Assembly (NCBI GenBank): GCA_902760965.1
Contig: CACWIN010000013.1
Coordinates: forward strand, 1-37,910
Direction: 5' to 3'
Length of the DNA stretch: 37,910 nt
Source of the DNA: an uncultured Bacteroidales bacterium
Lineage (GTDB): Bacteria; Bacteroidota; Bacteroidia; Bacteroidales; Bacteroidaceae
Positions 1,933 to 31,775 of the stretch are shown here, in pieces; position 1 is the first letter of the stretch, and every line of letters starts with the position of its first letter. The notes beneath the pieces were generated by a model, which saw only the letters and a program-made list of their open reading frames with translations, was not told where the DNA came from and searched no databases. Position numbers and translations under genes: made by a program.

Positions 1933-1997
1933 CCATTGGGGACGGTTCCGTTTGGCTCATTTGTTAAAAATGTGCCAAACGGAACCGTCCCCAATGG
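1933..1997 (+). repeat. Family A palindromic element, copy A1
   Basis: A 65-bp near-perfect palindrome: left arm CCATTGGGGACGGTTCCG, right arm CGGAACCGTCCCCAATGG, loop with TTTGTTAAAAA. The palindrome extends outward to GATGCC...GGCATC. It begins two bases after the TGA stop of the preceding gene (0 bases if the flanking TG is counted) and lies upstream of the aminotransferase promoter. One arm mismatch is present near the loop (AATGTGCC instead of AATGAGCC). Confidence 0.93.
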
Positions 1998-3269: not shown

Positions 3270-3326
3270 GTCCCTAATGGCGCGAATGTTAAAAATGAGC
3301 CGAACGGAACCGTCCCCTTTGGCGCG
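3270..3326 (+). repeat. Degenerate family A fragment (A')
   Basis: TGTTAAAAATGAGCC followed by GAACGGAACCGTCCCC matches the loop and right arm of family A, but the left arm has been replaced by GTCCCTAATGGCGCG. That segment is a near direct repeat of the right end GTCCCCTTTGGCGCG at 3312-3326. It looks like a decayed or rearranged copy. Confidence 0.7.
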
Positions 3327-7240: not shown

Positions 7241-7305
7241 CCATTGGGGACGGTTCCGTTTGGCTCATTTGTTAAAAATGAGCCAAACGGAACCGTCCCT
7301 TTCGG
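7241..7305 (+). repeat. Family A palindromic element, copy A2
   Basis: The left arm and loop are intact, with a perfectly paired GGCTCATT...AATGAGCC inner stem; the outer right end has decayed (CCCTTTCGG instead of CCCCAATGG). The element's TG flank begins immediately after the Wzz stop codon. It lies between that gene and the RAYT gene, i.e. on the left side of the transposase. Confidence 0.9.
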
Positions 7306-7360: not shown

Positions 7361-8170
7361 ATGGCACGTAAAGCTAGAGAAAACAGTATTTCCGGCATTT
7401 ACCATGTAATGCTTAGAGGTGTTAACCGACAAGACATTTTTGAGTGTGAGAAAGATTACCTTAAGTTTCTTGATTTGCTAAGGCGGGCGGCGTTTCCGCG
7501 CGATGAGTACAATAAGCCTTCGCCTCCTAATCTGGCGGTTTTTGCGTATTGTCTTATGCCTAATCATGTGCATCTTCTGGTTAGGGAGCAGGATGTGAGG
7601 ATATCGGACGCAATTAAAAGTATTACAGTGTCTTATGCGTATTATTTTAATCAAAAGTACGATCATGTGGGGCACCTTTTTCAGGACCGGTTCAGGAGCG
7701 AGACGGTGAATGATATGGCGTATTTTATTTCGCTGATGCGCTATATTCACCAGAATCCTGTGGCGGGGATGCTTTGCAAAAATGTGGATGGGTACCGATG
7801 GAGCAGCTGGTGCGAGTATAATCTTGAGCTGCCCTGCGATGTGGCTGTATGTTCCACAGAATCAGTGTATGACAAGATTACTTTCGATGAGCTGAATGAG
7901 CTTGTTAATGAGCCGATGCCTAAGGCGCAGCGTATTCTGGATTTTGATAACGATACTTTGATCCGGATGACCGATGATAAGGTCCGTGAATTTGTCAGAG
8001 AGGCGTGCGGCGTGAGGTGTCTTGTTGATATTCAGGGGCTTTCTAAGAAGATGCGGAATGAGATTCTGCGTAAGATGGTGGAGTTTGGGGCTTGCGTTCG
8101 GCAGGTTTCCCGCATTACCGGCATTAGCCGCGGGGTTATTGAGCGGGTGTTGAAGAAGAATGAACAGTAG
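7361..8170 (+). CDS. REP-associated tyrosine transposase (RAYT, Y1/HUH family)
   Basis: A 269-residue single-strand transposase of the IS200/Y1_Tnp superfamily. The N-terminal SGIYHVMLRGVNRQDIF block is typical. The HUH metal site is His69-Val-His71 in YCLMPNHVHLLV, and the GHLFQDRF block follows. The catalytic tyrosine is most likely Tyr128 in RYIHQNPV, which aligns with the Tyr-x-x-x-Asn-Pro of E. coli RAYT. The C-terminal about 60 residues (RQVSRITGISRGVIERVL) look like a helix-turn-helix domain, as in several RAYT groups. There are no insertion-sequence ends; instead the gene is flanked by element A2 on the left and the B4-B5 pair on the right, so it is probably domesticated and acts on these repeats. 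Confidence 0.9.
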   Translation: MARKARENSISGIYHVMLRGVNRQDIFECEKDYLKFLDLLRRAAFPRDEYNKPSPPNLAVFAYCLMPNHVHLLVREQDVRISDAIKSITVSYAYYFNQKYDHVGHLFQDRFRSETVNDMAYFISLMRYIHQNPVAGMLCKNVDGYRWSSWCEYNLELPCDVAVCSTESVYDKITFDELNELVNEPMPKAQRILDFDNDTLIRMTDDKVREFVREACGVRCLVDIQGLSKKMRNEILRKMVEFGACVRQVSRITGISRGVIERVLKKNEQ

Positions 8171-8194
8171 CTGGCGGTCCGATGAGGCCCCAGA

Positions 8195-8290
8195 GGGGCA
8201 CAAAGGGGACGGTTCTTTTTGTGCCCCTAAATATGGCTCTAGGAGGGGTTGTAGCGAGGGGCACAAAAAGAACCGTCCCCTTTGTGCCCC
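8195..8290. repeat. Inverted family B pair (B4, B5), REPIN-like
   Basis: B4 (8195-8227, core on +) and B5 (8258-8290, core on -) are separated by 30 bp; total 96 bp. The spacer ends GTTGTAGCGA, shared with the B8-B9 pair. Flanks GATGAG...CCCCAGA and TCTGGG...CTCATC extend the symmetry. The pair lies between the convergent RAYT and marC genes, 24 and 26 bases from their stop codons. Confidence 0.92.
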
Positions 8291-8316
8291 TCTGGGCCCC
8301 TTTGTGCTCATCGGTC

Positions 8317-9041: not shown

Positions 9042-10142
9042 ATGGATAAGTTATATCCGATGTTGTTTGAGCCTAATCTTCATACCATTGTTTGGGGTGG
9101 AGACAGGCTTGTCAAATGGAAAGAAACAGGGCCGATGGGGACGGTTCCGTTTGGCTCGTTTGTTAAAAACGAGCCAAACGGAACCGTCCCCAATGGCCCT
9201 ATCGGTGAAAGCTGGGAGGTCAGTGCTGTGGAGAGCTCGCCTAGTGTGGTGAGCAATGGGGCTTGGGCCGGCCGGACGTTGCCGGAGGTGGTGGCATCGG
9301 CCCCCGATGATATTCTTGGTAAGGCGGTGGCAAAGCGTTACGGAGGGCTTATGCCGTTGCTGGTCAAGTTTATAGACGCGCGCAAGGATTTGTCAATTCA
9401 GGTTCATCCAAACGACGAGATGGCTCAGCGCGAGCACGGAAAGTTTGGCAAGACCGAGATGTGGTATATTATTGATGCTGAGCCCGGTGCGTGCATTTAT
9501 TCGGGTTTTAGCAAGACTCTCACGCCCGATGAGTACAAGCGCATGGTGGCCGATGGGACCATTACCGATGCACTGGCCAGACATGAGGCGCATCCGGGCG
9601 ATGTGTTTTACATTCCGGCGGGACGCGTGCATGCAATATGCGGCGGTATTCTATTGGCGGAGATTCAGCAGTCATCGGACGTAACTTACAGAATATTTGA
9701 TTATAACAGGCCGGGATTGGATGGTCGGCCGCGCGAACTGCACACCGAATTGGCGGCAAAGGCGCTTAGTTATAAAGTTGAGAATAGGTATAGGACGGCT
9801 TATTCGGTCAAGGCAAATCATGCCAATAGGGTGGTGGAGACCGCATACTTTAGCGCTCGTGTGACTGAGATCGGGCAGCGTTTTCATCGGGACCTTAAAA
9901 AATATGATAGTTTTATCATAACTATGTGTCTTAAAGGTGATTGCAGGATTAAGATTCGACAAACCGGCGACGGGATTGTGTTGCGCGAGGGGTTCAGCTG
10001 TCTTATTCCGGCGGCGATTGCCGATTATGATATTGAACCTCTGAACGGGAGTTCGCGGGTTCTGGATGCGTTTATTGACAATCAGAAACGTGGTGTTATA
10101 AGGCGGTGGCTTTGGCAGACGTTCCGAAAAACAGAAAAATAA
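9042..10142 (+). CDS. manA: Type I mannose-6-phosphate isomerase carrying an in-frame element A3
   Basis: A 366-residue cupin-fold enzyme interconverting fructose-6-P and mannose-6-P in the cytoplasm, the first step to GDP-mannose. Zn ligands are visible: Gln120 and His122 in IQVHPND, Glu139 in KTEMWYI and His197 in GRVHAICGG. The start is ATG 9042; the TTG just before it is not needed. Residues 31-52 (PMGTVPFG...PNGTVPNG) are encoded by palindromic element A3 and interrupt the conserved N-terminal region between KWKETG and the GESWE motif (55-59). Without the insert the protein would be 344 residues, near family length. manC follows after 3 bases, so the two form an operon. Confidence 0.9.
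   Translation: MDKLYPMLFEPNLHTIVWGGDRLVKWKETGPMGTVPFGSFVKNEPNGTVPNGPIGESWEVSAVESSPSVVSNGAWAGRTLPEVVASAPDDILGKAVAKRYGGLMPLLVKFIDARKDLSIQVHPNDEMAQREHGKFGKTEMWYIIDAEPGACIYSGFSKTLTPDEYKRMVADGTITDALARHEAHPGDVFYIPAGRVHAICGGILLAEIQQSSDVTYRIFDYNRPGLDGRPRELHTELAAKALSYKVENRYRTAYSVKANHANRVVETAYFSARVTEIGQRFHRDLKKYDSFIITMCLKGDCRIKIRQTGDGIVLREGFSCLIPAAIADYDIEPLNGSSRVLDAFIDNQKRGVIRRWLWQTFRKTEK
9132..9196 (+). repeat. Family A element A3, in frame inside manA
   Basis: A 65-bp palindrome, CCGATGGGGACGGTTCCG ... CGGAACCGTCCCCAATGG, flanked by GG on the left and CC on the right (GGCC at both ends). The inner stem GGCTCGTT/AACGAGCC is perfectly paired. It is read as 22 codons (manA residues 31-52). Confidence 0.94.
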
Positions 10143-10145
10143 AAT

Positions 10146-11279
10146 ATGGCAAATCATGTTGTGATTATGGCGGGAGGTGTTGGAAGCAGGTTCTGGCCGC
10201 TCAGCACTCCGGAGTTTCCCAAGCAATTTATTGATATTCTGGGTTGTGGCAGGACGCTTATTCAGCTGACTGTTGACCGGTTTAAGGGCATTTGTCCCGA
10301 GACTAACTTTTGGGTTGTGACCAACCACAGCTACGTTGATATTGTTAAGGAGCAGATTCCGGGGATTCCTGCCGAGCATATCCTGGCTGAGCCGGCTGCG
10401 CGAAATACTGCACCGTGCATTGCATGGGCGTGCTGGAGCATAAGGCAGGAGGATGCCGATGCAAACGTGGTTGTTACTCCGGCCGATGCAGTGGTGATGA
10501 ATACGACCGAATTCCAGCGGGTAATTAGCGGCGCTCTGGCATTTACCCAGGGGCATGACAATATTGTGACCATTGGCATTAAACCTAATCGTCCGGAAAC
10601 GGGGTATGGGTATGTCAAAGCGATGCCGTTGGGGACGGTTCCGTTTGGCTCGTTTGTTAAAAACGAGCCAAACGGAACCGTCCCCAACGGTCCTATTAGG
10701 GGAGTTGAGGCGTTTAAGGAGAAACCGGACCTGGAGACGGCTAAAAAGTATTTGGCCGATGGCAACTATCTTTGGAATGCAGGTATATTTGTTTGGAACG
10801 TTAAGACCATTACCGATTCTATCAGGGCTTATAAACCTGAATTGGCAAAACAAATGGACAAAATGGTACCATTGGGGACGGTTCCGTTTGGCTCATTTGT
10901 TAAAAACGAGCCAAACGGAACCGTCCCCAATGGCATCGTTCAGGAGATATTTCCTCAGTGCGAGAAGATATCGATTGACTATGCTGTGATGGAGCCGGCG
11001 GCATCGGACGGTAAGGTGTTTACATATCCGGCCGATTTTGGTTGGAGCGACCTTGGAAACTGGCAATCGTTACACGAAAAACTGAGTAAGGATGCTCAGA
11101 ACAATGCTGCGGTAGGCAATGTTCATATGTACGAGTGCAAGGATTGCGTGGTTCATACCGAAGGGCTCAAGAAGGTGGTGCTTCAGGGTCTGGAGGGGTA
11201 TATTGTATCTGAAAAGAACGGACAGCTGCTGGTTTGCAGGCGGAGCGAGGAGCAGCGGATTAAGGAGTTTTCGGCCTAA
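10146..11279 (+). CDS. manC: Mannose-1-phosphate guanylyltransferase with two in-frame family A elements
   Basis: A 377-residue nucleotidyltransferase making GDP-mannose from GTP and mannose-1-P. The N-terminal signature MAGGVGSRFWPLSTPEFPKQF (residues 8-28), AEPAARNTAPCIA, a VVTPADAVV metal-binding block, NRPETGYGYV, FKEKPDLETA, LWNAGIFVW and DYAVMEPA are all intact. Two palindromic elements are translated through: residues 161-182 (A4, after GYGYVKAM) and 242-263 (A5, after QMDKMV). Without both the protein is 333 residues. The first interrupts the loop between the GYGY and EKP motifs, the second the segment before the conserved SIDYAVME block. It starts 3 bases after manA and ends before A6. 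Confidence 0.92.
   Translation: MANHVVIMAGGVGSRFWPLSTPEFPKQFIDILGCGRTLIQLTVDRFKGICPETNFWVVTNHSYVDIVKEQIPGIPAEHILAEPAARNTAPCIAWACWSIRQEDADANVVVTPADAVVMNTTEFQRVISGALAFTQGHDNIVTIGIKPNRPETGYGYVKAMPLGTVPFGSFVKNEPNGTVPNGPIRGVEAFKEKPDLETAKKYLADGNYLWNAGIFVWNVKTITDSIRAYKPELAKQMDKMVPLGTVPFGSFVKNEPNGTVPNGIVQEIFPQCEKISIDYAVMEPAASDGKVFTYPADFGWSDLGNWQSLHEKLSKDAQNNAAVGNVHMYECKDCVVHTEGLKKVVLQGLEGYIVSEKNGQLLVCRRSEEQRIKEFSA
10626..10690 (+). repeat. Family A element A4, in frame inside manC
   Basis: A perfect-arm palindrome with CCGTTGGGG...CCCCAACGG outer arms, where both strands changed together relative to the usual CCATTGGGG...CCCCAATGG. The inner stem is GGCTCGTT/AACGAGCC, also paired. It encodes manC residues 161-182. 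Confidence 0.94.
10869..10933 (+). repeat. Family A element A5, in frame inside manC
   Basis: Outer arms CCATTGGGG/CCCCAATGG are perfect. The inner stem has one A-C mismatch (TCATT versus AACGA), as if one arm had drifted or recombined. It encodes manC residues 242-263, 178 bp downstream of A4. Confidence 0.94.
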
Positions 11280-11295
11280 TCGGGCAAAAGTAGTA

Positions 11296-11360
11296 CCATT
11301 GGGGACGGTTCCGTTCGGCCTATTTGTTAAAAACGAGCCAAACGGAACCGTCCCCAATGG
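11296..11360 (+). repeat. Family A element A6
   Basis: A 65-bp copy 16 bases after the manC stop, with left-arm changes near the loop (GTTCGGCCTATT). It is directly preceded by TAGTA and followed, after 3 bases, by family B unit B6. The intergenic space between convergent manC and adk is almost entirely repeat DNA. Confidence 0.92.
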
Positions 11361-11363
11361 CCT

Positions 11364-11396
11364 GGGGCACAAAAAGAACCGTCCCCTTTGTGCCCC
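11364..11396 (-). repeat. Family B unit B6
   Basis: A 33-bp unit with the core on the minus strand, touching the TAA stop codon (11397-11399) of the minus-strand adk gene with no gap. Confidence 0.92.
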
Positions 11397-12377
11397 TTAG
11401 AGCATGTTTTCTTTGGAGAGGGGGCTCCAGGGACCGTCTTGAGCCATGAAGATGATGCTCAGGTCGATTACCTCGAATGTGTGCCACTGGCCCTTGGGGA
11501 TGTTTACGCCAAGCACGCCGGTGTCGCCTCCCATATGGATGCGCTCCTTTTCAACGCCTTTATCATTATAGAATACGGTGTCCATCTGACCGCGCAGAAG
11601 CATGATGGTTTCGGTGGAATAGTTGTGACGATGTATTGCCGTCTTTGTGCCGGGAAGCATCACGTTGAGCATACGCTGTGACTGGTCATCCTCGGAGTTG
11701 CGCAGGTCATAGTTCATGCGCAGGCGGGGTGATTCGTGAGCGAGCATCTGCACATTGTCAAGCAGGGCGTTGTCAATAACTACCTGACGCTCAAGCAGTT
11801 TGTCTATGCCGCGGAATACGCGGAGCATCTCCTTGCGGACTGCTTCAATATCGCCGCACTCGCCGTCAATCTCGTGATATTTGCCGGCATTCTTATAATA
11901 TGTGATAAGCGGTTCGGTCTGCTTGTGGTAGGTTGCTATGCGGTTTTTTATGGTTTCAACGTTGGCGTCATCGGCACGGCCTTCAATCTCGGCGCGGTGC
12001 TGGATGCGCTCTATGATGGTCTGATCCTTGATCATTATGGAAATGACTGCGTTCACTTTCTCGCCGCGAAGTGCCAGCATCTGATCCAGATCGGCGGCCT
12101 GACCTACTGTGCGGGGGAATCCGTCGAGCAGGAATCCGGCAACGTCCTTGTTGGAGTTGAAAGTGTTCTCTATCATGCCCTCCACTACGCTGTCGGGGAC
12201 CAGGTTTCCGGCATCGATCAGCTCTTTTGCCTGACGACCGAGTTCAGTGCCCGCGGCTATTTCGGCACGAAGCATTTCGCCTGTGCTGATGTGTTTAAGG
12301 TTGTACTTTTTTGATATTGCACCGGCCTGTGTGCCTTTTCCGGCACCGGGAGGGCCAAATAAGATGTAGTATTTCAT
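11397..12377 (-). CDS. adk: Adenylate kinase fused to a WbuC-type cupin
   Basis: A 326-residue two-domain protein. Residues 1 to about 190 are a short-type adenylate kinase (AMP + ATP to 2 ADP): P-loop GPPGAGKGT (8-16), STGEMLR, the GFPRT motif, RAEIEGRADD and a C-terminal EIDGECG strand; the long zinc LID is absent. Residues about 200-326 match WbuC-family cupin metalloproteins: ALLDNVQMLAHESPRLRMNYDLRNSEDD, MLPGTKTAIHRHNYSTETIMLLRGQ, GVNIPKGQWHTFE. WbuC is normally a separate gene of O-antigen clusters. The single uninterrupted frame shows a true fusion or a fused paralogue; it lies beside GDP-mannose genes. The stop codon touches element B6. Confidence 0.88.
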   Translation of the reverse strand: MKYYILFGPPGAGKGTQAGAISKKYNLKHISTGEMLRAEIAAGTELGRQAKELIDAGNLVPDSVVEGMIENTFNSNKDVAGFLLDGFPRTVGQAADLDQMLALRGEKVNAVISIMIKDQTIIERIQHRAEIEGRADDANVETIKNRIATYHKQTEPLITYYKNAGKYHEIDGECGDIEAVRKEMLRVFRGIDKLLERQVVIDNALLDNVQMLAHESPRLRMNYDLRNSEDDQSQRMLNVMLPGTKTAIHRHNYSTETIMLLRGQMDTVFYNDKGVEKERIHMGGDTGVLGVNIPKGQWHTFEVIDLSIIFMAQDGPWSPLSKENML

Positions 12378-12406
12378 TGATTTATACGGTTTTCAAAAAA
12401 CAGTTG

Positions 12407-12414
12407 CGAATATA
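12407..12414 (-). promoter_or_regulatory. -7-like box TATATTCG upstream of adk
   Basis: TATATTCG on the minus strand, 29 bases before the adk start, fits the TAnnTTCG variant seen at other genes here. No clear -33 motif. Confidence 0.3.
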
Positions 12415-12556
12415 ATATAAAGATGTGAATTATTTAATTTGATAGTTTTAATTTGGAAACTTGGACTGCGCAAAAATTAAGTATTTGTGTATTTTGGGGA
12501 ATCGGGCTGTTGAAAAGTAGATTGCCTTAAGGGGGAGTTTTTTGGAGCTTTTTTTT

Positions 12557-12564
12557 TATATTTG
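12557..12564 (+). promoter_or_regulatory. -7 box TATATTTG of guaA
   Basis: A TAnnTTTG box 39 bases before the guaA start; no convincing -33 TTTG at the usual distance. The rest of the 226-bp adk-guaA gap is AT-rich, and I see no riboswitch-like structure in it. Confidence 0.4.
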
Positions 12565-12603
12565 TTACCAATAAAAAATATTTACTGAAAAATAATTACA
12601 GAT

Positions 12604-13587
12604 ATGACTCAAGGTAACGTACGTCCGGCCGATATGGAGCGCATCACGACTCCGGCTCTGGCCAAGAAATTCATTGATGAACAGATTAAGGAGCTGCGTG
12701 CTCAGATTGGTGACAAGAAGGTTTTGCTGGCGCTGTCCGGCGGCGTGGATTCATCGGTCGTAGCGGCTTTGCTTATTAAGGCTGTGGGGCAACAGCTTGT
12801 TTCTGTGCATGTTAACCACGGTTTGCTGCGCAAGGGCGAGCCCGAGCAGGTGGTTAAGGTTTTCCGCGATGAGCTGAATGCCAACCTGATTTATGTGGAT
12901 GCTGTTGACCGATTCCTGGACAAGCTGGCAGGCGTGGCCGATCCGGAGCAGAAGCGCAAAATTATTGGCGCCGAGTTTATACGCGTGTTTGAGGAGGAGG
13001 CTAGGAAATTATCTGGCATTTCGTTCCTGGCTCAGGGCACAATTTATCCCGATATTGTGGAATCGGGCCCCGTAAAATCGCACCACAACGTGGGCGGTCT
13101 GCCTGAGGATCTTAAGTTTGAGCTTGTGGAGCCGATAAAGCTGCTGTTCAAGGATGAGGTGCGCGTGGTTGGCAAGGAGCTGGGTCTGCCCGACAACATG
13201 GTGTACAGGCAGCCGTTCCCGGGTCCGGGTCTGGGCGTGCGCTGCACCGGCGCTATTACTCGCGACCGCCTGGAGGCATTGCGTGAGTCCGATGCAATCC
13301 TGCGCGAGGAGTTTGCCAAGAACGGCCTGGAGGGCAAGGTTTGGCAGTACTTTACCATCGTGCCCGATTACAAATCAACAGGCGTTAAGTCCGGGCAGCG
13401 CTCCTGGGATTGGCCGGTGATTATCCGCGCCGTGAATACCCGCGATGCAATGACGGCAACTATTGAGGAGATTCCTTACAAGCTGCTGCACCATATTACT
13501 CAGAGGATTATCACTGAGGTGCCGGGTGTGAACAGGGTGCTTTATGATCTGACTCCGAAACCTACTGGAACCATAGAGTGGGAGTGA
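12604..13587 (+). CDS. guaA: GMP synthase, ATP-pyrophosphatase plus dimerisation part only
   Basis: A 327-residue protein matching the C-terminal two thirds of GMP synthase, which aminates XMP to GMP. The PP-loop LLALSGGVDSSVVAAL (about residues 41-56), VHVNHGLLRKGE, AQGTIYPDIVES, SHHNVGGLPE, PGPGLGVRC and the C-terminal dimerisation segment ending TPKPTGTIEWE are all present. The roughly 190-residue N-terminal glutamine amidotransferase domain of the usual bacterial enzyme (about 510-525 residues) is absent, and nothing in the upstream gap encodes it. The enzyme may use free ammonia or a separate glutaminase subunit as in archaea, or be a second copy beside a full-length guaA elsewhere. A strong terminator follows. 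Confidence 0.9.
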   Translation: MTQGNVRPADMERITTPALAKKFIDEQIKELRAQIGDKKVLLALSGGVDSSVVAALLIKAVGQQLVSVHVNHGLLRKGEPEQVVKVFRDELNANLIYVDAVDRFLDKLAGVADPEQKRKIIGAEFIRVFEEEARKLSGISFLAQGTIYPDIVESGPVKSHHNVGGLPEDLKFELVEPIKLLFKDEVRVVGKELGLPDNMVYRQPFPGPGLGVRCTGAITRDRLEALRESDAILREEFAKNGLEGKVWQYFTIVPDYKSTGVKSGQRSWDWPVIIRAVNTRDAMTATIEEIPYKLLHHITQRIITEVPGVNRVLYDLTPKPTGTIEWE

Positions 13588-13591
13588 TTAT

Positions 13592-13620
13592 AAAAACTCG
13601 GGCCTTGGTCCGAGTTTTTT
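13592..13620 (+). terminator. Intrinsic terminator after guaA
   Basis: A 10-bp stem AAAAACTCGG / CCGAGTTTTT with loop GCCTTGGT, ending in a T6 run, 4 bases after the guaA stop. Confidence 0.85.
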
Positions 13621-13622
13621 AG

Positions 13623-13752
13623 AAATTTTGGGTTGTTGGCAGGCAAAACCGTCGCCACCCTCGGCGCGTTAGAGGGAGCGGCCCGCGCCCAAAGGGCGTG
13701 GGAGGGATAGCGCCTTTAGGCGCGTAGTTTTGCCGTCAATAACCCAAAATTT
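13623..13752. other. Multi-hairpin structured element of about 130 bp
   Basis: Long imperfect inverted ends (13623-13649 and 13727-13752; AAATTTTGGGTT...AACCCAAAATTT and GGCAAAAC...GTTTTGCC) enclose three hairpins: CCCTC/GAGGG (13658-13676), CCCGCGCCC AAA GGGCGTGGG (13682-13702) and GCGCC TTTA GGCGC (13710-13723). The whole would fold into a closed multi-branch junction. It lacks the GGGGACGGTTC core, so it is unrelated to families A and B. It could be a small mobile element or a structured RNA; I do not recognise it. A further hairpin CCCGAT CAAT ATCGGG follows at 13753-13768. Confidence 0.6.
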
Positions 13753-13789
13753 CCCGATCAATATCGGGCTTAATACTCAATTATAAGTA

Positions 13790-13820
13790 TTGATTGGTTT
13801 TGTAGTTAGCAGTAATTTTG
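13790..13820 (+). promoter_or_regulatory. Promoter of feoAB
   Basis: TTG at 13790-13792, a 20-base spacer and TAATTTTG at 13813-13820; ATG 13840 is 19 bases downstream. Confidence 0.5.
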
Positions 13821-13832
13821 CGGGCAAAATTA
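13813..13832. promoter_or_regulatory. Perfect palindrome over the feoAB start region, candidate operator
   Basis: TAATTTTGC GG GCAAAATTA: two 9-bp arms with a 2-bp spacer, overlapping the -7 box and predicted transcription start of feoAB. Its position suits a metal-dependent repressor (Fur- or DtxR-type), but the sequence is not a classic Fur box and the regulator is inferred only from the gene it precedes. Confidence 0.45.
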
Positions 13833-13839
13833 GCGAGGT

Positions 13840-16221
13840 ATGACTTTACGCGAACTTAAGATTGGTGAGAGTGCGGTGGTGACCGCTGTTGGTGGTGAAG
13901 GCGCTCTGCGTCAGCATTTTCTGGATATGGGACTGCTGCCGGGCGTTGAGGTTAAGCTCTTGAAGTATGCGCCGATGGGCGATCCTATGGAGCTGCTGGT
14001 TCGCGGGTATACTCTTTCTTTGCGTCTTGAAGAGGCAGCGAAGATCGAAATGAGGCCATTGGGGACGGTTCCGTTTGGCCCGTTTGTTAAAAACGAGCCA
14101 AACGGAACCGTCCCCAATGGTACCGATTTTGGGTACAACCTGTCGTTGCACGAGCACAACTCGCATCCGGGTTTGGGTGAGGCAGGCAAGTACCATGATC
14201 CGGCGCATGAGAATGCGGTTCCTAAGGGAACGGTGCTCAGGTTTGCGCTGGCGGGGCAGCAGAACTGCGGTAAGACTACCTTATTTAATCAGCTTACGGG
14301 GTCTAACCAGCACGTGGGTAATTTTCCGGGCGTGACTGTGGACCGAAAGGACGGGCAGATTAAGGGGCATCCGGATACGCTTGTGACGGATCTGCCGGGC
14401 ATTTATTCTTTATCGCCCTATACTCAGGAGGAGACGGTTTCGCGCCAGTTCATTATTGAGCAGAAACCTAACTGCATTATCAATATAGTCGATGCGACCA
14501 ACATTGAGCGCAACCTGTATCTGACGGTTCAGCTGATGGAGCTGGGCGTGCCTATGGTGCTGGCTCTCAATATGATGGATGAGCTGACGGGTAACGGCGG
14601 TTCGGTGCGCGTGAATGAGATGGAGCGTATTCTGGGCGTTCCGGTGGTGCCGATATCGGCCGCAAAGGGTGAGGGCATAAAGGAGCTGGTGGAACACGCC
14701 ATTCATGTGGCTGAGTATCAGGAGGTTCCGGCTCGCACAGACTTTTGCACAAAGGATGATCACGGCGGCGCTGTTCACCGTTGCCTGCACAGCATAATGC
14801 ACCTGGTTGAGGATCACACCGAGCGTGCGGGTATTCCGGGCCGATTCGCAGCCGGCAAGCTTGCGGAAGGTGATACTCAAGTGCTTGAGGCACTGCAACT
14901 TACTCAGAATGAAAAAGAGACGATGGAGCACATAATCCTGCAGATGGAAGAGGAGCGTGGGATGGACCGCGCGGCCGCCATTGCCGATATGCGTTTCTCG
15001 TTTATTGAACGCCTTTGCTCTCAGACAGTTATCAAGCCGCAAAAGAGCAAAGAGTATATAAGGAGCCGCAGGATTGACCGCGTTCTGACCGGCCGATGGA
15101 CCGCAATTCCAATTTTTTTGGTTGTGATGTGTCTGGTAATCTGGCTCTCAATAGACGTACTTGGCGCGCCACTGCAGGACTGGCTTGATCAGGGAATCCA
15201 GTGGCTGGCAGGCATTTGCGTGGCTGGTCTTGAGCGGGCCGATGTAAGTCCGGCAATCATATCTTTGGTTGAAGACGGTATTTTTGGCGGCGTGGGAAGC
15301 GTGCTTAGTTTTGTGCCTATCATCATCATCCTATTCTTCTTCCTGAGTCTGATTGAGGACAGCGGATATATGGCACGTATCGCTTTTGTGACCGATAAGC
15401 TGCTGCGTAAACTTGGTCTGTCGGGCCGTTCTATCGTGCCGCTGCTTATCGGTTTTGGCTGTTCGGTGCCGGCTGTGATGGCTACAAGGACGTTGCCATC
15501 GGCCCGTGACCGTAAAATGACAATTCTGCTGACTCCGTTCATGAGCTGCAGCGCCAAGATTCCAATATACGGATTTTTTACCAATGCGTTTTTCCCGGGC
15601 AAGGGCGGTCTGATTCTGGCCGGGCTGTACCTGTTGTCTATTCTGGTGGGTGTGATTGTGGCGCTTGTGACCAAGCTGTTCCGCAAGAATTATGTGGCTG
15701 CGCCGTTTGTGATGGAGCTGCCCAATTATCGTATGCCGGGCCTCAAGAACGTGAGTCATCTGCTTTGGGATAAGACGAAGGATTTTGTTCAGAGGGCGTT
15801 CACCGTAATATTCGTAGCAACAATCGTAATCTGGTTATTGCAAACTTTTGATTTCCGCTTCAATATGGTGGAGAACGGCGAGGGCTCAATGATGGCTTGG
15901 GTTGCCGGCGTGCTGGAACCTTTGTTCCGTCCGCTTGGCCTTGGCGATTGGCGAATCGTAACATCGTTTGTAAGCGGTTTTCTTGCAAAGGAGAGCGTGG
16001 TTGCAACAATGGAAGTGCTTGGCGTAACCGAGTCCCTTACCGTAATTACCGCTGTGCCGATGCTCATATTCAGCCTGCTCTATACACCCTGCGTTGCTGC
16101 AATCAGCAGCGTGCGCCGCGAACTTGGTGACAAGTGGGCAATCTACGTTGTGCTGTTCCAGTGCGTCATTGCCTGGATTGTGGCCTGGTTCGGATACTTA
16201 ATCGCTCAAGCTGTACTATGA
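13840..16221 (+). CDS. feoB: FeoA-FeoB fusion ferrous iron transporter with element A7 in the linker
   Basis: A 793-residue inner-membrane Fe(II) transporter. Residues 1-72 are a FeoA SH3-like domain (LRELKIGESAVV, FLDMGLLPG); then comes the cytosolic G domain with G1 GQQNCGKT (139-146), the NFPGVTVDRK switch, DLPGIYSLSPY and NMMD (G4). A helical region and about ten membrane helices with two Gate-type blocks follow (GFGCSVPAVMATRT, FMSCSAKIPIY). FeoA-FeoB fusions are normal in Bacteroidales. Residues 73-94 (PLGTVPFGPFV...PNGTVPNG) are encoded by palindromic element A7, at the FeoA/G-domain linker, where extra residues should be tolerated. The stop overlaps the start of the next small gene (ATGA). 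Confidence 0.94.
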   Translation: MTLRELKIGESAVVTAVGGEGALRQHFLDMGLLPGVEVKLLKYAPMGDPMELLVRGYTLSLRLEEAAKIEMRPLGTVPFGPFVKNEPNGTVPNGTDFGYNLSLHEHNSHPGLGEAGKYHDPAHENAVPKGTVLRFALAGQQNCGKTTLFNQLTGSNQHVGNFPGVTVDRKDGQIKGHPDTLVTDLPGIYSLSPYTQEETVSRQFIIEQKPNCIINIVDATNIERNLYLTVQLMELGVPMVLALNMMDELTGNGGSVRVNEMERILGVPVVPISAAKGEGIKELVEHAIHVAEYQEVPARTDFCTKDDHGGAVHRCLHSIMHLVEDHTERAGIPGRFAAGKLAEGDTQVLEALQLTQNEKETMEHIILQMEEERGMDRAAAIADMRFSFIERLCSQTVIKPQKSKEYIRSRRIDRVLTGRWTAIPIFLVVMCLVIWLSIDVLGAPLQDWLDQGIQWLAGICVAGLERADVSPAIISLVEDGIFGGVGSVLSFVPIIIILFFFLSLIEDSGYMARIAFVTDKLLRKLGLSGRSIVPLLIGFGCSVPAVMATRTLPSARDRKMTILLTPFMSCSAKIPIYGFFTNAFFPGKGGLILAGLYLLSILVGVIVALVTKLFRKNYVAAPFVMELPNYRMPGLKNVSHLLWDKTKDFVQRAFTVIFVATIVIWLLQTFDFRFNMVENGEGSMMAWVAGVLEPLFRPLGLGDWRIVTSFVSGFLAKESVVATMEVLGVTESLTVITAVPMLIFSLLYTPCVAAISSVRRELGDKWAIYVVLFQCVIAWIVAWFGYLIAQAVL
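14056..14120 (+). repeat. Family A element A7, in frame inside feoAB
   Basis: Outer arms CCATTGGGG/CCCCAATGG are perfect. The inner left arm has GGCCCGTT instead of GGCTCGTT, changing one residue of the peptide to Pro (PFGPFV). Read as feoAB residues 73-94. Confidence 0.94.
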
Positions 16222-16354: not shown

Positions 16355-16419
16355 CCATTGGGGACGGTTCCGTTTGGCTCATTTGTTAAAAACGAGCCAA
16401 ACGGAACCGTCCCCAATGG
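16355..16419 (+). repeat. Family A element A8
   Basis: A 65-bp copy whose flanks extend the palindrome to AGTGCC...GGCACT. The flanking TG starts immediately after the TAG stop of the small Feo gene. Unit B7 follows after 4 bases, the same A-then-B arrangement as A6/B6. Confidence 0.93.
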
Positions 16420-31647: not shown

Positions 31648-31650
31648 TTA

Positions 31651-31746
31651 GGGGCACAAAGGGGACGGTTCTTTTTGTGCCCCTCTTTATTGCGCTAGAA
31701 GGTGTTGTAGCGAGGGGCACAAAAAGAACCGTCCCCTTTGTGCCCC
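31651..31746. repeat. Inverted family B pair (B8, B9), REPIN-like
   Basis: B8 (31651-31683, core on +) and B9 (31714-31746, core on -) with a 30-bp spacer, total 96 bp, exactly the layout of B4-B5. The spacer ends AGAAGGTGTTGTAGCGA, similar to that of B4-B5. It sits between two convergent genes, 3 bases after the thioesterase stop and 29 bases from the phosphatase stop. Confidence 0.93.
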
Positions 31747-31775
31747 TCTTTGGGTCCCAGTGAGCCCCGGTGGAA

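Follow-up and report, generated by a model that had tools for sequence, protein, structure and literature searches.

In-frame REP palindromes at a RAYT locus occupy shared slots with species-specific content in housekeeping genes of a Bacteroidales genus

The stretch of DNA analysed here (the window; 37,910 nt) belongs to the draft genome (G000; 81 % complete) of an uncultured Bacteroidales bacterium and contains, 0.9 kb ahead of manA, a gene for a tyrosine transposase associated with repetitive extragenic palindromic sequences (REPs), i.e. a RAYT. Copies of a 65-bp palindrome are present in frame at four positions of manA, manC and feoAB, and the corresponding slots of manC and feoAB hold species-specific REPs in relatives of the same genus (labelled G001 and so forth). 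The genes and in-frame copies of this locus are as follows:

7361..8170, + strand: RAYT gene, IS200-like Y1 transposase of 269 aa with MPNHVH and YIHQNP motifs (PF01797, 7.8e-13)
9042..10142, + strand: manA, class I mannose-6-phosphate isomerase (PMI_typeI_cat, MPI_cupin_dom; TIGR00218 above cut-off)
9132..9196, + strand: in-frame REP copy of manA, ETG-PMGTVPFGSFVKNEPNGTVPNG-P, flanked by WK and IGESWEV (pattern match; relatives carry GLPEQDH-like residues there)
10146..11279, + strand: manC, mannose-1-phosphate guanylyltransferase (NTP_transferase)
10626..10690, + strand: REP copy in frame in manC, slot 1, after GYGYVK and before VEAFKEKP (pattern match, orthologue alignment)
10869..10933, + strand: REP copy in frame in manC, slot 2, after DKM and before IFPQCEKIS (pattern match, orthologue alignment)
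13840..16221, + strand: feoAB, ferrous iron transporter, FeoA-FeoB fusion (FeoA and FeoB domains)
14056..14120, + strand: in-frame REP copy of feoAB, at the linker joining FeoA and FeoB (pattern match, orthologue alignment)

Domains were called with Pfam, and the models NF047646 and TIGR00218 were also scored. Assignment of the RAYT is based on PF01797 above cut-off and on the presence of the HUH and YIHQNP motifs; NF047646 (REP-associated tyrosine transposase) yielded E 2.7e-14 and 53 bits, which is under its cut-off of 80.

Copies of the palindrome were searched with a pattern allowing 6 substitutions in the window and in 20 stretches of G000 fetched around its other matches (the latter bearing L-numbers, here L003, L006, L010, L017 and L020). 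Overall, 26 full copies were detected, every one of exactly 65 bp; they are distributed over many contigs and represent one common type, and this long type is dominant across the genome. Eight of the 26 locate in the window (p = 6e-9, which overstates the clustering since the window had been selected on account of its repeats). One copy equals its own reverse complement at 62 of 65 positions and folds into a single unbroken hairpin (-40.7 kcal/mol, z = -15), a palindromic structure far beyond chance. Two forward frames of the element are open and the third contains TAA. No GTAG tetranucleotide is fixed in the flanks of the 26 copies, and CGTC is present within the stem, not at the element end.

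A preliminary description of the window, made from the sequence alone, had recognized the four intragenic copies; pattern matches, open reading frames (ORFs) and Pfam domains agree that they are in-frame 65-bp palindromes, and their common orientation as well as their use of the same one of the two open frames were confirmed. Further in-frame copies were found in a PcrA/UvrD helicase (L010:6349-8757, contig C35 of G000) and as the C-terminal tail of a protein with a tRNA_edit domain (L006:3248-3922). The strongest findings go beyond that description, namely that related species fill the same slots with REP types of their own and that the RAYT adjoining manA-manC is a conserved hub. Five of the 26 copies lie well inside long ORFs, namely those of manA, manC (two copies), feoAB and pcrA/uvrD. 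The uniform frame proposed for the first four copies extends to all six in-frame copies of G000 (0.5^6 = 0.016 on the assumption of two equally probable frames), whereas the uniform orientation does not, the loop orientation being the same in 5 of 6 and reversed in the tRNA_edit copy. A one-frame rule does not hold across the genus either: the FeoAB REPs of G025, G029 and G014 are read in another frame. Several ORFs were not counted as in frame: in the DegT ORF at 1927 the repeat probably precedes the true start, in the radical-SAM (L017) and GuaA (L003) frames it lies ahead of the likely start, and the NUDIX frame (L020) has just mixed half palindromes at its end.

Each element encodes 22 codons, as had been described, but alignment with homologues contradicted a clean insertion of 22 residues: because original loop residues are missing, the net gain is just 15-19 residues. 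It amounts to about +19 in ManA (26 residues vs 7 in REP-less relatives), +15 to +18 in ManC slot 1 (compared to the REP-less G011, G007 and G009) and +19 in ManC slot 2 (compared to REP-less relatives); G012 possesses a long ManC slot-1 loop without a REP. In PcrA of G000, the REP occupies the place of an FQ(K/V)VTESML-like segment which is conserved in most relatives and precedes the tudor domain. The ManC inserts align with gaps at corresponding positions of the solved homologue 2x5s, and the ManA segment lies ahead of the GESW motif of the solved homologue 1qwr; judged from these alignments, both probably sit in surface loops. Pfam still recognizes the domains of manA, manC and feoAB around the inserts, and the intact domains suggest that the products of these genes and of pcrA are functional. 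The earlier proposal of a RAYT-linked in-frame palindrome insertion in a Bacteroidales bacterium, residing in tolerated loops or linkers, is supported.

The slots were traced in the same genus (37 genomes including G000, i.e. 36 relatives), a group of ruminant-gut bacteria. The long element matched 13 of 81 relatives searched, and all 13 belong to this genus. A 19-base pattern matched at least 94 stretches of named genomes; among the matches listed, 91 are from Bacteroidales-type bins, several of them named for ruminants, and one each from records of a Microcoleus, of an actinobacterium and of a verrucomicrobium. Counting orthologue rows with readable slots, a REP is present in 14 of 25 at ManC slot 1 and in 12 of 24 at ManC slot 2 (with degenerate remains in G029 and G011), in 12 of the 20 rows listed for the FeoAB linker and, as REP-like peptides recognized by eye, in at least 10 of 30 at the PcrA linker. 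The internal insertion of ManA is confined to G000 among the aligned rows, and empty slots were found in G007, G009 and G012.

The types of REP in these slots differ and are species-specific: the long type has 65 bp and the short type 23 bp, and the frame stays open with either. The encoded peptide is PLGTVPFGSFVKNEPNGTVPNG in G000, EPKGTVLFGPISKKEPNRTVPFG in G008, VPMGPDPNG in G002, G006, G010 and G020, VQKGSDPNC in G017 and G022, VPKGSVPNG in G021, VQLGPDPNC in G025 and VQKGTVPNC in G026, with further variants elsewhere. The borders of slot 2 are constant (ATG-GTACC...GGTA) around an interior varying from 23 to 65 bp, and at slot 1 common derived flanks (KT...II[LQ]VE) enclose different REPs in 12 genomes.

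The two slots of ManC change together. Both slots hold the short type in 11 genomes (G029 was left out for its degenerate slot 2, G000 and G008 since the long type is not alignable with the short), among which the mean difference between the slots is 0.09 per 22 nt within a genome vs 3.06 between genomes (permutation p = 1e-5); as the genome pairs are phylogenetically non-independent, the test collapsed to 7 haplotype pairs is the fairer one (p = 3.7e-4). Pairwise comparison gave 173 site differences, and in 163 of them both slots show the identical change. The manC DNA of G021 and G022 is 94.5 % identical, with 3 differing sites in each slot. ManC slots also resemble the non-slot REPs of their own genome (mean difference 1.88) more than those of others (3.64; p = 4e-5), as determined with 6-40 kb of DNA sampled per genome for 10 of 12 genomes (G010 and G029 had too few elements); with one genome per haplotype, p is 0.001 to 0.004. 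In the majority of the species studied, the palindrome version found in the enzyme loops is that of the species itself, as though a resident transposase continually overwrote short protein segments.

A RAYT homologue was detected at E 1e-15 in 22 of 37 genomes and locates 1.1-3.4 kb from manC in G000 and 11 other genomes, in all of which it is flanked by the dispersed REP type of its own genome. The density of REPs, slot copies included, is 5.6 per 10 kb in the RAYT-manAC region vs 0.36 in control regions, i.e. about 15-fold higher, in 11 of 11 genomes (Wilcoxon p = 5e-4); controls were the pcrA region in 10 genomes and, with coordinates chosen by hand, the feoAB region in G005. This lower density away from the RAYT gene suggests local action. 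The regions without such a RAYT (G007, G009, G012, G013 and G033) contain 0-1.5 REPs per 10 kb. A single clade (SH-aLRT 99) comprises the RAYTs of the 9 short-type genomes, in 8 of which the REPs beside the RAYT have the same core as the ManC slots (in G005 as one slot only). In genomes with the syntenic gene, the RAYT is 59-67 % identical to that of G000, compared to 81-86 % for ManC and 92-96 % for FeoAB in mostly the same genomes, and therefore evolves fast. Presence of a RAYT is associated with filled slots (12/12 vs 3/7, p = 0.009, with G010, G026 and G029 included; 12/12 vs 0/4, p = 5e-4, only if these three are dropped); G015 and G033 lacked a usable ManC, and G012 was counted as RAYT-less. 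In the latter genome, contig C35 opens with part of a RAYT (62 % identity to that of the window), about 7.6 kb ahead of a REP-bearing feoAB.

With a probability of roughly 0.6, we attribute these patterns to a resident RAYT hub which spreads REPs locally, with rewriting of the in-frame copies upon a change of the RAYT/REP pair. The inserts would be REP-type palindromes of the RAYT adjoining manA-manC, spread chiefly around its own gene; copies in frame in tolerant loops (those of ManC and ManA, the FeoA-FeoB linker and the PcrA linker) would survive as part of the enzyme. Upon divergence of RAYT and REP in a lineage, the new REP type would overwrite the slots within fixed borders, so that the loops of unrelated enzymes would change in step. 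Mechanistically, the RAYT may cleave REP hairpins in single-stranded DNA and then exchange strands or provoke conversion from another copy; the slot interior would be swapped, most frequently near the RAYT, either by strand exchange or when a nicked REP is repaired from a second copy. The TnpAREP of Escherichia coli is described to cleave and recombine single-stranded REPs in vitro (PMC8266576), and the present RAYTs may, by analogy, act likewise. A bolder formulation, put forward tentatively and at somewhat less than even odds, regards the domesticated transposase as an intragenomic copy-editor of proteins, with permanent in-frame slots whose loops are rewritten in place and in step at each RAYT/REP change, which would amount to concerted evolution across non-homologous genes.

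Several observations weigh against rewriting by a resident RAYT. G000 harbours 14 short cores elsewhere besides its dominant long type, and the own-genome REP sample is nearest to the slots in only 5 of 10 genomes (ties among same-type genomes included). G020 is a clear exception: it has the same type in its slots as G006, but a different one in its remaining REPs and its RAYT flanks; rewriting is therefore not prompt. Long-type remnants are found in the PcrA linkers of G021, G022, G036, G026 and G012, most of which are genomes with a prevailing short type. No RAYT was detected near the filled ManC slots of G010, G026 and G029, where the contigs end early, and G010 and G026 (about 80 % complete) gave no RAYT match genome-wide. 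Furthermore, the slot 1 flanks of G000 and G008 are unlike those of the other 12 genomes, which points to separate insertions, and all genomes are metagenome-assembled or nearly so.

The difference in slot 1 flanks also favours the strongest rival, namely recurrent independent insertion, whereby each lineage re-inserts its current REP into tolerant loops after loss of the old one and no conversion takes place in place. The two FeoAB frames, the empty slots of three genomes and the ManA insertion unique to G000 are in agreement with it. Since slot 1 displays at least three kinds of flanks, FeoAB two frames and ManA an insertion in G000 only, tolerant loops must also have received insertions repeatedly. 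As the full explanation it is nevertheless unlikely: it would require exact loss and reinsertion at one base every time, and it is opposed by the 12 genomes having the same derived slot 1 flanks around different REPs and by the GTAC border of slot 2, kept through the 23- and 65-bp types.

Rather improbable is that ordinary RecA-type gene conversion among dispersed repeats homogenizes the slots without involvement of the RAYT. It would account for concerted change within genomes, and gene conversion of REPs is an old proposal, reportedly made in a review of 1988. The shared tract, however, comprises just 23 bp, which is short for homologous recombination, between unrelated flanks; moreover, REPs cluster at the RAYT locus and the RAYT clade predicts the REP class. 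Still less credible is the movement of the RAYT-manA-manC-feoAB block between species as one unit, slots and local REPs travelling together. G009 and G012 are indeed placed differently in the ManC and the concatenated tree (with many weak branches), but such transfer offers no account of two slots within one block changing together, the single type shared by the 26 full copies of G000 on many contigs argues against it, and G021 and G022, though sisters in either tree, show parallel slot differences. An assembly or binning artefact is very improbable despite the draft state of every genome, since the slots recur in genomes of several named sources (RUG, RGIG), the frames stay open, and repeats of 23-65 bp are presumably shorter than usual reads.

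The novelty implied for the kind of insertion did not stand: intragenic, in-frame and RAYT-linked REPs have been described for many phyla, UvrD/Rep helicases included, and recB of two Xanthomonas species carries different REPs at about the same site (PMC3733652). The elements resemble the REPtrons of that account, in which short palindromes, intergenic for the most part but in some cases in frame within genes, are associated with a Y1 transposase, but carry no GTAG tag, and the same slots of several genes holding species-specific REPs that change together go beyond what the consulted part of that source describes. Rickettsia palindromic elements are likewise found in frame in unrelated housekeeping genes, to which they add a peptide (PMC3733652), yet differ in host phylum, sequence and end tag, and by the RAYT adjoining here; the CGTC class including RPE-4 and RPE-6 is reported there to have no transposase association. 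Terminal inverted repeats (TIRs) of TIRYT transposases (GGGGWSAS; PMC3733652, subclass 2.1 in PMC6006769) are similar in that inverted repeats flank the transposase gene and the short-type cores GGGGTCAG and GGGGACAG fit this motif, whereas the long-type core GGGGACGG of the window departs from it at the seventh base. One resident RAYT per REP type and a REP population are shared with REPINs and vertically inherited RAYTs (PMC3116915, PMC8049555), the latter being regarded as domesticated genes (PMC8049555); these accounts treat extragenic populations, and the parts available mention neither clustering at the RAYT nor a rewriting of protein loops.

The open literature searched, which omits most subscription papers, yielded no account of coding slots being rewritten in concert. 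In-frame REPs being known, what appears to be new is that the same loops carry species-specific REPs across a genus. In-frame palindromes have so far been treated as one-off insertions, whereas here the slots persist across the genus; as their content follows the REP type of the own genome, protein change coordinated between unrelated enzymes would continually arise from a mobile element. Slots in conserved genes also provide landmarks with known borders and ancestral state, by which the spread of REPs becomes testable.

Outside the coding slots, the window contains the following palindromic features:

1933..1997, + strand: REP copy 5' of the DegT aminotransferase gene, within an open frame and probably ahead of the true start
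3287..3317, + strand: partial REP copy
7241..7305, + strand: intergenic REP copy 5' of the RAYT gene, right end diverged
8194..8293, strand not assigned: type-B palindrome pair 3' of the RAYT gene, with GGGGACGGTTC core
11296..11360, + strand: intergenic REP copy 3' of manC, adjoining a type-B half palindrome
16355..16419, + strand: intergenic REP copy 3' of feoAB, adjoining a type-B half palindrome

Type B (GGGGCACAAAGGGGACGGTTCTTTTTGTGCCCC) represents a second palindrome family, and the GGGGACGGTTC core is common to both families. A further type-B site of the window locates at 31650-31749, and half copies near 3325, 11363 and 16421; type-B halves adjoin copies of the 65-bp palindrome (type A), and type B also flanks a second RAYT of G005. 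Between manC and feoAB, an ORF on the minus strand (11397-12377) reads, by eye, as adenylate kinase with an extra cupin-like C-terminal part. Positions 12604-13587 code for the C-terminal half of GMP synthase (PP-loop, GMP_synt_C) without the glutaminase domain, and a full-length GuaA of G000 is encoded at a separate locus (L003).

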